Source of the DNA: Alphaproteobacteria bacterium | GTDB lineage: Bacteria; Pseudomonadota; Alphaproteobacteria; Rs-D84 | Length of the DNA stretch: 34,067 bases | Direction of reading: 5' to 3' | NCBI GenBank assembly: GCA_017546085.1 | Contig: JAFYXQ010000017.1 | Location: 1-34,067 of the forward strand | Shown: one piece after another, positions 10,897 through 14,083 of the stretch | How positions within the stretch are numbered: the first letter of the stretch is position 1 | How the letters are laid out: each line of letters opens with the position of its first letter | The notes under the pieces: generated by a model | What the model was told of the DNA's origin: nothing | The model's database searches: none | Seen by the model: the letters and a program-made list of their open reading frames with translations, nothing else | Position numbers and translations under genes: made by a program

Positions 10897-10917
10897 CGAA
10901 ACTATGAAACTAGGCAA
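10889..10917 (-). promoter_or_regulatory. promoter of bamD
   Basis: On the minus strand TTGCCT (10912-10917), a 17-nt spacer and TATACT (10889-10894) predict a start near 10882, giving a 30-nt leader with an AGGA site. The -35 lies inside the murJ coding start. Confidence 0.55.
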
Positions 10918-12364
10918 ACATATTTTCGGGGTCGGTGCAATGACAGGCATAAGTCGCGTGTTCGGATTCGTGCGCGACATGCTGATTGCGCGTGTTATGG
11001 GCGCAGGAAGATTATCCGACATTTTTTTAGCTGCGTTTAAATTGCCGAATCTGTTTCGCGATTTGTTGGGCGAAGGCGCCTTGTCCGCGATATTTATCCC
11101 GATGTTTACAGATGCCAAAAAAGACGAAAATTTTGCAAAAAATGTTTTTTCGTGGCTGATGTTGGGACTGTTGATAATAACAATCGTATTCGAAATATTT
11201 ATGCCGTTGGTGGTATGGGGATTGGCACCTGGGTTTGATATGGTACCTGGCAAGATGGAAACGACTGTCTTGATTTCTCGTATCATGTTCATATATGTGA
11301 TTTTTATTTGCGCATCAGCGTTTTTATCCGCAATATTAAATGCGTTTTCAAAATTTTTGCTGGCGGCGTTTATGCCTGTAATGCTGAATATTATGCTGAT
11401 ATGCGCACTTCTAATCGCGATGGTATTTGGTTCGCAAAATATATTGTATCTGATGTCTGGGACGGTTGTTTTGTCGGGAATTATTCAATTCGCAATTCTA
11501 TGGGCGCGTATTAGACGTGGACATTTTGGATTACGACTGATCGTGCCACGATTAACGCCGAAGATAAAAAGTATCTTTAAACGACTGAGCATCAGCATTG
11601 TGGGCAGCGGTTTTTATCAAATTACCATCATTGTCGGCACACTGGTCGCGAGTTTTCAAAGTGGGGCCGTATCGTGGCTATATTATTCAGACAGAATTGT
11701 TCAATTGCCATTTGCGATGGTCGGTTTGGCGGTTGGAACTGTCTTAATGTCATCTATATCAAATGCAATCGCAAATAAAAATATGCGCAGTGTTTATATC
11801 CAACAAAATTCTTCTATGCGAAAATCAATGATGCTGATACTGCCATGTATGGTGGGACTGATTGTGTTGGCACATCCAATCATTAAATATTTGTTCCAAT
11901 ATGGCGCATGGACCGCAGAATCAACACAGGCTGTTTCAATCGCAATTATGATTCAGGCACTTGTTCTGCCAGCGATGTTGATTAGTCAGATTTACAGTAA
12001 AACACTTTATGCAGCACAGGATGTTAAGACGCCAGTTAAAACAAGTATTATTTCACTGGTTGTGGCTGCAGCTATATATTTGTCCCTGTTCCCGTTTGTC
12101 GGATATTTGTCAGTACCAATTGGCGTTGTGGTTAGCGGATACCTTAAAAATGCATTATTGTGGCGCGCATGTAAAAAACGTGCACTGATTAATACAGATA
12201 AACGAACAAAACGATCGATATTTATAATGGCGATTTTGTCGGTAATATTAGGGATAGGGCTTGCCACGTTGCAAATATCCAACATTTGGGTTTTAGCATT
12301 CGCAATTGTCGGATACGCAATCTTGTATCTGCCAGTTGCATATGTGATTGATAGAAAAATATAA
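10904..12364 (+). CDS. murJ: lipid II flippase MurJ
   Basis: MurJ (486 aa) flips lipid II across the inner membrane for peptidoglycan synthesis. It belongs to the MOP superfamily, and 13-14 hydrophobic segments can be seen. The charged cavity residues known from E. coli occur at the same positions: Arg18, Arg24, Asp39 and Arg52 (in ISRVFGFVRD, GRLSDIF and LPNLFRDL). LGEGALSAIFIPMF and QLPFAMVGLAVGTVLMSSIS are family signatures. The ATG at 10904 (MKLGKHIF) is chosen over an upstream in-frame codon at 10874 because it aligns with the family and lies 1 nt after the predicted transcription start; the upstream codon would lie before it. No Shine-Dalgarno is visible, so a leaderless mRNA is likely. 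The gene diverges from bamD. Confidence 0.97.
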   Translation: MKLGKHIFGVGAMTGISRVFGFVRDMLIARVMGAGRLSDIFLAAFKLPNLFRDLLGEGALSAIFIPMFTDAKKDENFAKNVFSWLMLGLLIITIVFEIFMPLVVWGLAPGFDMVPGKMETTVLISRIMFIYVIFICASAFLSAILNAFSKFLLAAFMPVMLNIMLICALLIAMVFGSQNILYLMSGTVVLSGIIQFAILWARIRRGHFGLRLIVPRLTPKIKSIFKRLSISIVGSGFYQITIIVGTLVASFQSGAVSWLYYSDRIVQLPFAMVGLAVGTVLMSSISNAIANKNMRSVYIQQNSSMRKSMMLILPCMVGLIVLAHPIIKYLFQYGAWTAESTQAVSIAIMIQALVLPAMLISQIYSKTLYAAQDVKTPVKTSIISLVVAAAIYLSLFPFVGYLSVPIGVVVSGYLKNALLWRACKKRALINTDKRTKRSIFIMAILSVILGIGLATLQISNIWVLAFAIVGYAILYLPVAYVIDRKI

Positions 12365-12380
12365 TATTGAAAAAATAAAT

Positions 12381-12409
12381 TTGAAAACGGCCCTTCGTTA
12401 TGATAAAAT
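12381..12409 (+). promoter_or_regulatory. promoter of the RlpA-like lipoprotein gene
   Basis: TTGAAA (12381-12386), a 17-nt spacer and TAAAAT (12404-12409) predict a start near 12416. This leaves a 29-nt leader with the Shine-Dalgarno AAGGAG at 12429-12434. Confidence 0.6.
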
Positions 12410-12444: not shown

Positions 12445-13344
12445 ATGAAAAAAATAATTTCTTTGGCGGTCTTGACAGCAATGCTGGCAGGCTGTATGGA
12501 TTTAAACAGAACAGGTACAGGCACATCATACGGTGCTGATGGTTTCGGTGAAGAAACACTGACTGGTGCAGATTCAACCGCATCATTGAATGACACATAT
12601 CTGATGGCCGCAGCACCCAAATATTATGTCGGAAGTGCATACAAGGTTGACGATGTACAGTATATCCCTGTGGAAGATTTGACATATAATCAAACCGGCA
12701 TGGCAGGCATTATCCCTGTTGAATTAAATGGAACAAAAACAAGCAACGGTGAAATATTTGACATTAACCAAATGGTCGCGACGAGCAAGACTTTGCCACT
12801 GCCAACGATTGCACGTGTTACAAATCTTGATAACGGTCAATCTGCAATTGTTCGTGTAAATAATCGTGGTCCATTTGTAAATACGCGTCTGATGGATTTG
12901 TCCCCTGCGGCTGCTGAAAAAATCGGCATGAAAGGTCAAGCTAAGATTCAAATTCAAGTTCTGCCAGAACAAACAATGGTTGTAAAAAATGCAACATTGG
13001 GCATAAATGAACCACAACCAGTTGTTACAGAAACAACCACAACGGTTACAGAAACAGTTGCCGCGCCGGTTGAAGCAGCACCGGTTGCAACAGCGCCAAT
13101 TTCCGGTGATTACAGTGTACAGGTTGCCGCATTCTATGCACAGGATACCGCGGATTCTTTGGCACAAAAGTTAAAGACATACGGCGATGCAGTCGTTATT
13201 AACGAAGGCGACATGTTCAAGGTTCGCATAATAAACCTTGATGCAACAAAGGCACGCAGTGTTATTGACGCATTGCGCGCAAACGAAGGCATGGCACCAG
13301 GATTGTTGAAAGACGGCCGATGGATAAATGCCGATAGTATTTAA
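12445..13344 (+). CDS. rlpA: RlpA-like septal lipoprotein with SPOR domain, catalytic residues replaced
   Basis: This 299-aa protein has the RlpA plan: signal peptide with lipobox LAGC (Cys17), a double-psi beta-barrel at about 82-172 (TSNGEIFD, KTLPLPTIARVTNLDNG, RGPF, LMDLSPAAAEKIGM), a Thr/Ala/Pro linker (about 192-219), and a C-terminal SPOR domain (GDYSVQVAAFYAQDT, 221-299) that should bind denuded septal glycan. RlpA of Pseudomonas is a lytic transglycosylase whose essential His (in AHKTLP) and Asp (in NDRGPF) are 26 residues apart. Here those positions are Ser114 and Asn140, also 26 apart, so cleavage is doubtful. The ATG at 12445 has AAGGAG 10 nt upstream. Transcription is from its own promoter, downstream of murJ. 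Confidence 0.93.
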   Translation: MKKIISLAVLTAMLAGCMDLNRTGTGTSYGADGFGEETLTGADSTASLNDTYLMAAAPKYYVGSAYKVDDVQYIPVEDLTYNQTGMAGIIPVELNGTKTSNGEIFDINQMVATSKTLPLPTIARVTNLDNGQSAIVRVNNRGPFVNTRLMDLSPAAAEKIGMKGQAKIQIQVLPEQTMVVKNATLGINEPQPVVTETTTTVTETVAAPVEAAPVATAPISGDYSVQVAAFYAQDTADSLAQKLKTYGDAVVINEGDMFKVRIINLDATKARSVIDALRANEGMAPGLLKDGRWINADSI

Positions 13345-13346
13345 AA

Positions 13347-13374
13347 AAAGTCGCCCAAATGGGCGATTTTTTTT
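13347..13374. terminator. bidirectional terminator between the RlpA-like and GNAT genes
   Basis: TCGCCC/GGGCGA (13351-13356 with 13361-13366) is extended by A and T runs on both sides. It serves two convergent genes; the GNAT stop codon overlaps it. Confidence 0.8.
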
Positions 13375-14083
13375 AACGAGTTTTATTGATATAATGGTTC
13401 ATCACTGATTCTACACTAAATTTTGCAATCCCGTTTGATGCCGCGACAATAAGCCTATCATTATCAGATAAAACGGAAAAACCATCAATACTACCCCGGT
13501 CATTACAATATACAAACATTGGGGAATCCATGGCGTTTATCATTTCAGAGTCAAATTCTGCAGACAATTTTTCACACGCCTTGGCCAATTTTGTGGTGCA
13601 ATGAAAAACAGGTATTGTTGCCAAATGACCAACATCTGACAAAGAACGAACGAAACGATTGTTCGTTTCGCCCAACCGATAACCATTTTTTATATAAAAT
13701 GGCTTAGCCTGATCCATCGCAATCAAATTTATATTTTTCGCAACCAAGGAAGATGCTTTTTCTGCCTGTTTTAATAAACGTAAACCTATGCGCATGTGTT
13801 GATATTCGTGCAAAACATACAAATGACGAATATACGCATTACCGTGCAACGCATCACCATTTACACACCCAACTACCTTGTCGCCATCATACGCAGCAAA
13901 GGCGAAACAAAAACTATTATTTCGATACGATTCCCAAAATTCTTCGAATGCAGCAAAATGCTGAAATGATGTAAGCGCCATACTATACGTATCCCTTAAT
14001 GTAGCGACACGAACAGCCCAAAAATCGTCCCATATTTTTGGCTGATCTGATTTAAAAATAGGTCTGATACTTATATCTTTCAT
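13373..14083 (-). CDS. GNAT-family N-acetyltransferase
   Basis: This 236-aa protein carries a GNAT acetyltransferase domain in its first 140 residues. Motif A/B is seen in AYIRHLYVLHEYQHMRIGLRL, where the acetyl-CoA loop reads Q95-H-M-R-I-G100 rather than the usual Q/RxxGxG, and in FYIKNGYRLGE. About 95 further residues have no recognisable domain, so the protein is longer than a simple GNAT. The substrate is unknown. The ATG at 14081-14083 (MKDISIRP) is chosen because a consensus-like promoter places the transcription start 1 nt before it; an in-frame codon at 14119 would lie upstream of the transcript. No Shine-Dalgarno is present. It is convergent with the RlpA-like gene. Confidence 0.85.
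   Translation of the reverse strand: MKDISIRPIFKSDQPKIWDDFWAVRVATLRDTYSMALTSFQHFAAFEEFWESYRNNSFCFAFAAYDGDKVVGCVNGDALHGNAYIRHLYVLHEYQHMRIGLRLLKQAEKASSLVAKNINLIAMDQAKPFYIKNGYRLGETNNRFVRSLSDVGHLATIPVFHCTTKLAKACEKLSAEFDSEMINAMDSPMFVYCNDRGSIDGFSVLSDNDRLIVAASNGIAKFSVESVMNHYINKTR

Follow-up and report, generated by a model that had tools for sequence, protein, structure and literature searches.

A clade-fixed, probably non-cutting RlpA with replaced active-site residues in an alphaproteobacterial family with reduced genomes

The His and the NDRGP Asp of Pseudomonas aeruginosa RlpA are reportedly essential, a finding attributed to Jorgenson (2014). In a 34,067-nucleotide stretch of alphaproteobacterial DNA (GenBank assembly GCA_017546085.1, contig JAFYXQ010000017.1; the window), an RlpA-like lipoprotein carries Ser and Asn at these two places, and the question arises whether it is a decaying enzyme, a changed enzyme or a protein that no longer cuts glycan. 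The features of the locus are collected in Table 1.

Table 1. Position, strand and supporting evidence of the features at the rlpA locus (positions in the window).
Feature	Position	Strand	Evidence
murJ (lipid II flippase), directly 5' of rlpA	10907..12364	+	pair kept in most of the family
Promoter-like site TTGAAA-17-TAAAAT, 10/12	12381..12409	+	match to consensus alone
Altered RlpA CDS, 299 aa (P0001)	12445..13344	+	ORF translation; TIGR00413 rlpA score
Signal peptide and lipobox to Cys17 (LAGC)	12445..12495	+	LPAM_1 match
Conserved pre-DPBB segment, residues 56–83	12610..12693	+	median dN/dS 0.028
DPBB (RlpA lytic transglycosylase-like) domain, residues 84–172	12694..12960	+	Pfam, AlphaFold, 4avr match
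Gly-Ile-Ile-Pro (residues 88–91) replacing Ser-Trp-Tyr-Gly	12706..12717	+	Gly88, Pro91 in 152/152
Ser114 replacing RlpA His	12784..12786	+	Ser 148/153, His 5/153
Asn140 replacing NDRGPF Asp	12862..12864	+	Asn 151/153, Thr 2/153, Asp 0/153
Asp151, equivalent of the superfamily general acid/base, kept	12895..12897	+	Asp in 153/153
SPOR domain, residues 219–296	13099..13332	+	Pfam, 6i05 match, glycan residues
Terminator-like hairpin directly 3' of rlpA stop	13341..13376	+	match to consensus alone

The frame runs without a frameshift from ATG 12445 to the stop codon at 13342–13344, and its product has all three parts of the RlpA-family architecture: lipobox, DPBB (DPBB_1 Pfam match: residues 96–171, E 2.8e-20) and SPOR (Pfam match: residues 220–284, E 1.1e-7). 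The score was above the cut-off of the RlpA subfamily model TIGR00413 (119.6 bits; cut-off 82.15) and below that of NF007953, the equivalog model of the endolytic peptidoglycan transglycosylase RlpA (115.3 bits; cut-off 201). The lipobox Cys is present in 151/153 orthologues and a +2 Asp in 0/153; with Met after Cys17 and the +2 Asp absent, sorting to the outer membrane would be expected. An opposite-strand gene was rejected: no such frame is open over the whole stretch, and a 147-aa ORF inside rlpA (12724–13167, minus strand) was ascribed to chance. Promoter-like sites near rlpA were little more numerous than in shuffled sequence.

Residues 112–120 read A-T-S-K-T-L-P-L-P and residues 138–144 read V-N-N-R-G-P-F; on alignment with PA4485 (4avr; AAHRTLP and INDRGPF at the aligned sites), with the orthologues and with Escherichia coli RlpA, the His position is taken by Ser114 and the Asp position by Asn140 at a spacing of 26, as the original prediction had it. 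A third active-site element is replaced besides these two, Ser88-Trp89-x-Gly91 having become Gly-Ile-x-Pro. With this groove motif also gone, the proposal that the DPBB domain binds glycan without cleaving it was not borne out; it is for the SPOR domain, not the DPBB groove, that a case for glycan binding can be made. The accompanying statement that both catalytic residues are replaced goes too far: the His and the NDRGPF Asp are indeed replaced, but the general acid/base is kept, and the Asn occupies the place of a −2 subsite contact.

These roles follow from the superfamily layout. Asp151 aligns with MltA D308, EXLX1 D82 and P. aeruginosa RlpA D168, and Asn140 aligns with MltA Asp297. The catalytic carboxylate of MltA and YuiC is Asp308 and Asp162, respectively, with Thr99 and Thr91 as the orienting residues, and the Asp 11 residues N-terminal of it (MltA Asp297, YuiC Asp151) contacts the −2 N-acetyl group (PMC4499186). 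Asp71 and Asp82 of EXLX1 are equally spaced, and its Thr12 lies within an ATYTG motif. Asp168 was named as catalytic in P. aeruginosa RlpA, and E. coli has Ser there (PMC9712689); this Ser was found to align on Asp151 of the altered RlpA, the NDRGP Asp of E. coli being retained. Because of the homology to MltA, YuiC and EXLX1 and of the E. coli Ser alignment, Asn140 is read as the substrate-contact position and Asp151 as the general acid/base; the Asp-orienting position is occupied by Gly88. As judged by alignment, then, the orienting residue, the aromatic residue, the His and the contact Asp are lost and the general acid/base is kept, so that loss of activity is likely rather than proven. An Asn serving as the catalytic base, as in GH45 subfamily C, was rejected, since that Asn occupies a different position and is partnered by a kept acid.

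The source genome is of 822 kb (0.82 Mb; 62 contigs, 94.6% complete). Close orthologues were found in records of Candidatus Enterousia, a gut alphaproteobacterium (order and family Rs-D84) with a reduced genome and a probable dependence on partners (PMC12306168); the source organism would belong to this or a near genus. The family comparison comprised 153 orthologues from 12 genera, and the residue pairs at positions 114 and 140 were 146 Ser/Asn, 2 Ser/Thr and 5 His/Asn, with Asp140 in none; SWYG is replaced by GIIP, GIVP or GVIP in every family orthologue that covers the motif. Four of the His/Asn loci belong to genus g10, and the fifth, a partial one, to g12; Thr at the Asn140 position was seen in L160 and L162, both members of the genus. 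Of the sister families in the order, f2, f3, f5 and f6 were compared, and all four retain His, Asp and SWYG; His and Asp together with SWYG-type motifs also occur in 97 of 98 other relatives. Set against these 97, the complete absence of Asp140 from the family is a pattern far beyond chance. The sole exception of the 98 is a Rhizobiales RlpA (L245), in which Ser stands at the His position, Asp and SWYG being kept.

In the tree the family forms one clade (support 100/100), whose stem measures 2.36 changes per site. Within it the His/Asn genus falls next to the Ser/Asn remainder, whose own node has weak support (81/46). This grouping suggests a stepwise change, following one long stem branch, in which Asp and SWYG were lost first and His later. 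The neighbouring murJ lies on the same strand across a gap of 80 bases; its adjacency was rejected as a cause of the switch and is a mere correlate, since it is missing from the four complete His/Asn loci and from some Ser/Asn loci. In one locus of the His/Asn genus (L060), a D,D-carboxypeptidase-like gene was observed 3' of rlpA, with murJ not upstream.

The substitutions were also predicted to be fixed in the clade under selection, and this was confirmed by the distribution above and by the strong purifying selection in DPBB. Median dN/dS was 0.027 in DPBB, the most constrained domain, as against 0.056 in SPOR and 0.32 in the linker. With dS close to saturation these values are approximate, and the contrast between domains is the safer reading. 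Type-II switches, i.e., positions near-fixed within both groups and different between them, were found in DPBB mainly at active-site positions (S88G, W89I, G91P, F94L, A113T, H114S, D140N), the other being I150M. Ser114 is encoded across the family by AGY as well as TCN codons, and its retention over both codon families indicates selection for Ser itself. The changed site is thus fixed and not decaying.

Both folds are intact in the predicted structure (AlphaFold; mean pLDDT 83, DPBB about 95); the model matched 4avr (Z 15.2; rmsd 1.1 Å across 92 residues) and 6i05, the SPOR domain of P. aeruginosa RlpA (Z 10.2). The expected preservation of the SPOR domain was found, residues that hold the denuded-glycan ligand being conserved. 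Lit. data for the contacts in P. aeruginosa SPOR: Q270, A273, F274, R309 and R311 (PMC6895207); counterparts here: Gln226, Ala229, Phe230, Lys259 and Arg261, of which Gln226 and Ala229 are invariant and Lys259 and Arg261 are present in 149/150. P. aeruginosa R302 falls in an alignment gap.

The reading to which moderate confidence is given is that of a clade-fixed, probably non-cutting RlpA working as a SPOR-targeted septal lipoprotein or adaptor anchored in the outer membrane. On this reading it is the family's own RlpA, passed down vertically, and its groove would have been remodelled in the family's ancestor and held unchanged since; the lipid anchor would retain the protein in the outer membrane, SPOR would direct it to septal glycan denuded by the amidase, and DPBB may offer a docking site to a partner, e.g., to one of the other lytic transglycosylases or a synthase, or alternatively act as a non-cutting glycan clamp. 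Docking or clamping is the most economical account, because cutting has probably been lost and DPBB is more constrained than SPOR. The cutting of glycan would be left to Slt, an MltB-type enzyme and MltG: profile matches in the source genome gave one lytic transglycosylase of each of these three types and one Amidase_3, which would supply the denuded glycan; on visual inspection, SLT, amidase and MltG have the active-site motifs expected of them. The protein's identity, the substitutions with their fixation and constraint, the fold, the SPOR residues and the amidase and other lytic transglycosylases of the genome are observed; we infer the loss of activity, the septal targeting, the outer-membrane sorting and the docking role.

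The putative role as scaffold or regulator is reasonable by precedent. E. coli RlpA showed no detectable activity and yet bound FtsK (PMC6113214); the active-site mutant D145A of Vibrio cholerae RlpA did not support growth and kept its septal localisation (PMC8820737); P. aeruginosa RlpA bound several LTs and PBPs at nM affinity (PMC9712689); and DipM of Caulobacter is an inactive-domain regulator of autolysins (PMC10336132). Against a non-enzymatic role stands the conservation of Asp151 in 153/153 together with the invariant Glu103: a fully non-enzymatic protein needs no Asp151, and in E. coli RlpA, which is inactive, Ser takes its place. Nor does Asn140 preclude hydrogen bonding at the −2 contact, since it could still act as an acceptor there.

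The same residues lend weight to the strongest alternative, a doubtful one on balance, that the protein is still an enzyme, its groove re-shaped and Asp151 its only acid/base, with either a changed specificity (e.g., for glycan that is modified or carries different substituents) or lytic transglycosylase activity at a slower rate. Besides Asp151, Glu103, Asn139 and Arg141 are invariant in the family, the substitutions are fixed and not drifting, the catalytic carboxylate of MltA and YuiC is the equivalent of Asp151, and the equivalent of Asn140 contacts the −2 N-acetyl group only (PMC4499186); a passage of PMC8820737 describes a single active-site change that made the MltG relative MpgA a muramidase. 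What weighs against an enzyme is that the Asp-orienting residue is Gly in 152/152, that Trp is lost and His is lost in nearly all, and that no activity was detected for E. coli RlpA, which has the His and the NDRGP Asp and is without SWYG and the Asp151 equivalent (PMC6113214). It is possible, if tentative in the same degree, that the coordinated replacement of the seven active-site residues listed above (S88G to D140N) around Asp151, instead of merely breaking an enzyme, gave DPBB a novel site for binding or catalysis; the family would then depend on the altered specificity or partner of this site.

An expansin-like action, in which DPBB would bind and strain glycan strands uncut and so loosen the septal wall, is improbable. 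The DPBB fold is common to expansins (Z about 9), and these keep the Asp82 equivalent, here Asp151, with no hydrolysis (PMC5072189); however, EXLX1 activity needs Asp71, Tyr73 and Asp82, with Thr12 hydrogen-bonded to Asp82, and the aligned residues are Asn140, Gly142, Asp151 and Gly88, so that three of the four differ and the Asp82 equivalent alone is kept.

Relaxed selection on a leftover of genome reduction, heading for loss, is very improbable. It would suit the reduced 0.82 Mb genome, the 8 of 156 genus genomes, mostly incomplete ones, in which no RlpA match was found, and the extra canonical RlpA (AHKTLP and NDRGPF) in 13 of the 156; it is at odds with a DPBB dN/dS of about 0.03, with frames intact over 12 genera and with near-invariance at the switched positions. 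The extra copies, moreover, form a separate clade that groups in the tree with gamma- and zetaproteobacterial RlpA, and where both are listed the canonical protein accompanies the altered copy and never substitutes for it. These extra copies (L002–L008, L032–L037), some with SPOR and some without it, were probably acquired by transfer. Near-complete genomes, G075 and G080 among them, have the altered RlpA only. The case that would have undone the original prediction, an intact second RlpA beside a decaying copy, is excluded as far as 94.6% completeness allows: the altered RlpA is the one DPBB_1 (PF03330) match in the source genome, and this single match, the low dN/dS and the separate clade of second copies rule out a decaying paralogue. 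An annotation or assembly artefact (miscalled bases or a wrong frame in a draft of 62 contigs) has a practically negligible chance and was rejected, identical residues recurring in >140 separate genomes, near-complete ones included.

Among known systems, the endolytic lytic transglycosylase RlpA of P. aeruginosa (PF03330 and PF05036) is like the altered RlpA in being a lipoprotein with DPBB and SPOR, in fold, in Asp168/Asp151 and in the Gln and basic residues of SPOR; unlike it, the altered protein has its His, NDRGPF Asp and the Ser, aromatic residue and Gly of SWYG replaced. E. coli RlpA shares 41% identity over DPBB, the LPxP motif, the loss of SWYG (AAIYD) and catalytic silence in published assays, but keeps His and the NDRGP Asp and has Ser at Asp151, the altered RlpA being the reverse. 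Since E. coli K-12 RlpA (L317:2103-3191) reads AAIYD for SWYG, RlpA proteins have lost the motif on at least two occasions. The 3D-domain lytic transglycosylases MltA and YuiC have the same superfamily layout, with two Asp positions 11 apart and an orienting Thr/Ser, whereas the altered RlpA has Asn at the first Asp, Gly at the orienting position and no second domain of MltA. DipM, EnvC and NlpD, regulators with inactive LytM domains, are comparable by analogy (a wall-enzyme domain that lost its active site and was kept as regulator); their fold is unrelated, and their activator role is demonstrated, while that of the altered RlpA is only proposed. A literature search for RlpA and pseudoenzyme together found no paper with both terms.

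The altered RlpA is real, clade-fixed and more than a single odd gene, and E. coli RlpA is a partial precedent. One order holds a natural series from His/Asp through His/Asn to Ser/Asn, a route by which a septal wall-cutting enzyme would have been converted while its DPBB remained more constrained than the targeting domain; the series separates which RlpA active-site residues matter. E. coli had raised the suspicion that RlpA has a non-enzymatic role, and such a role becomes testable where the altered form is usually the sole RlpA.

Four SPOR matches were found in the source genome: the altered RlpA, an FtsN-like protein, a D,D-carboxypeptidase with SPOR and, weakly, a VirB9/CagX-like protein. 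The last (L312:512-2128, contig C32) is a conjugation protein with a C-terminal partial SPOR match, and partial SPOR matches, in frames of about the same length, recur throughout the family and the sister families.
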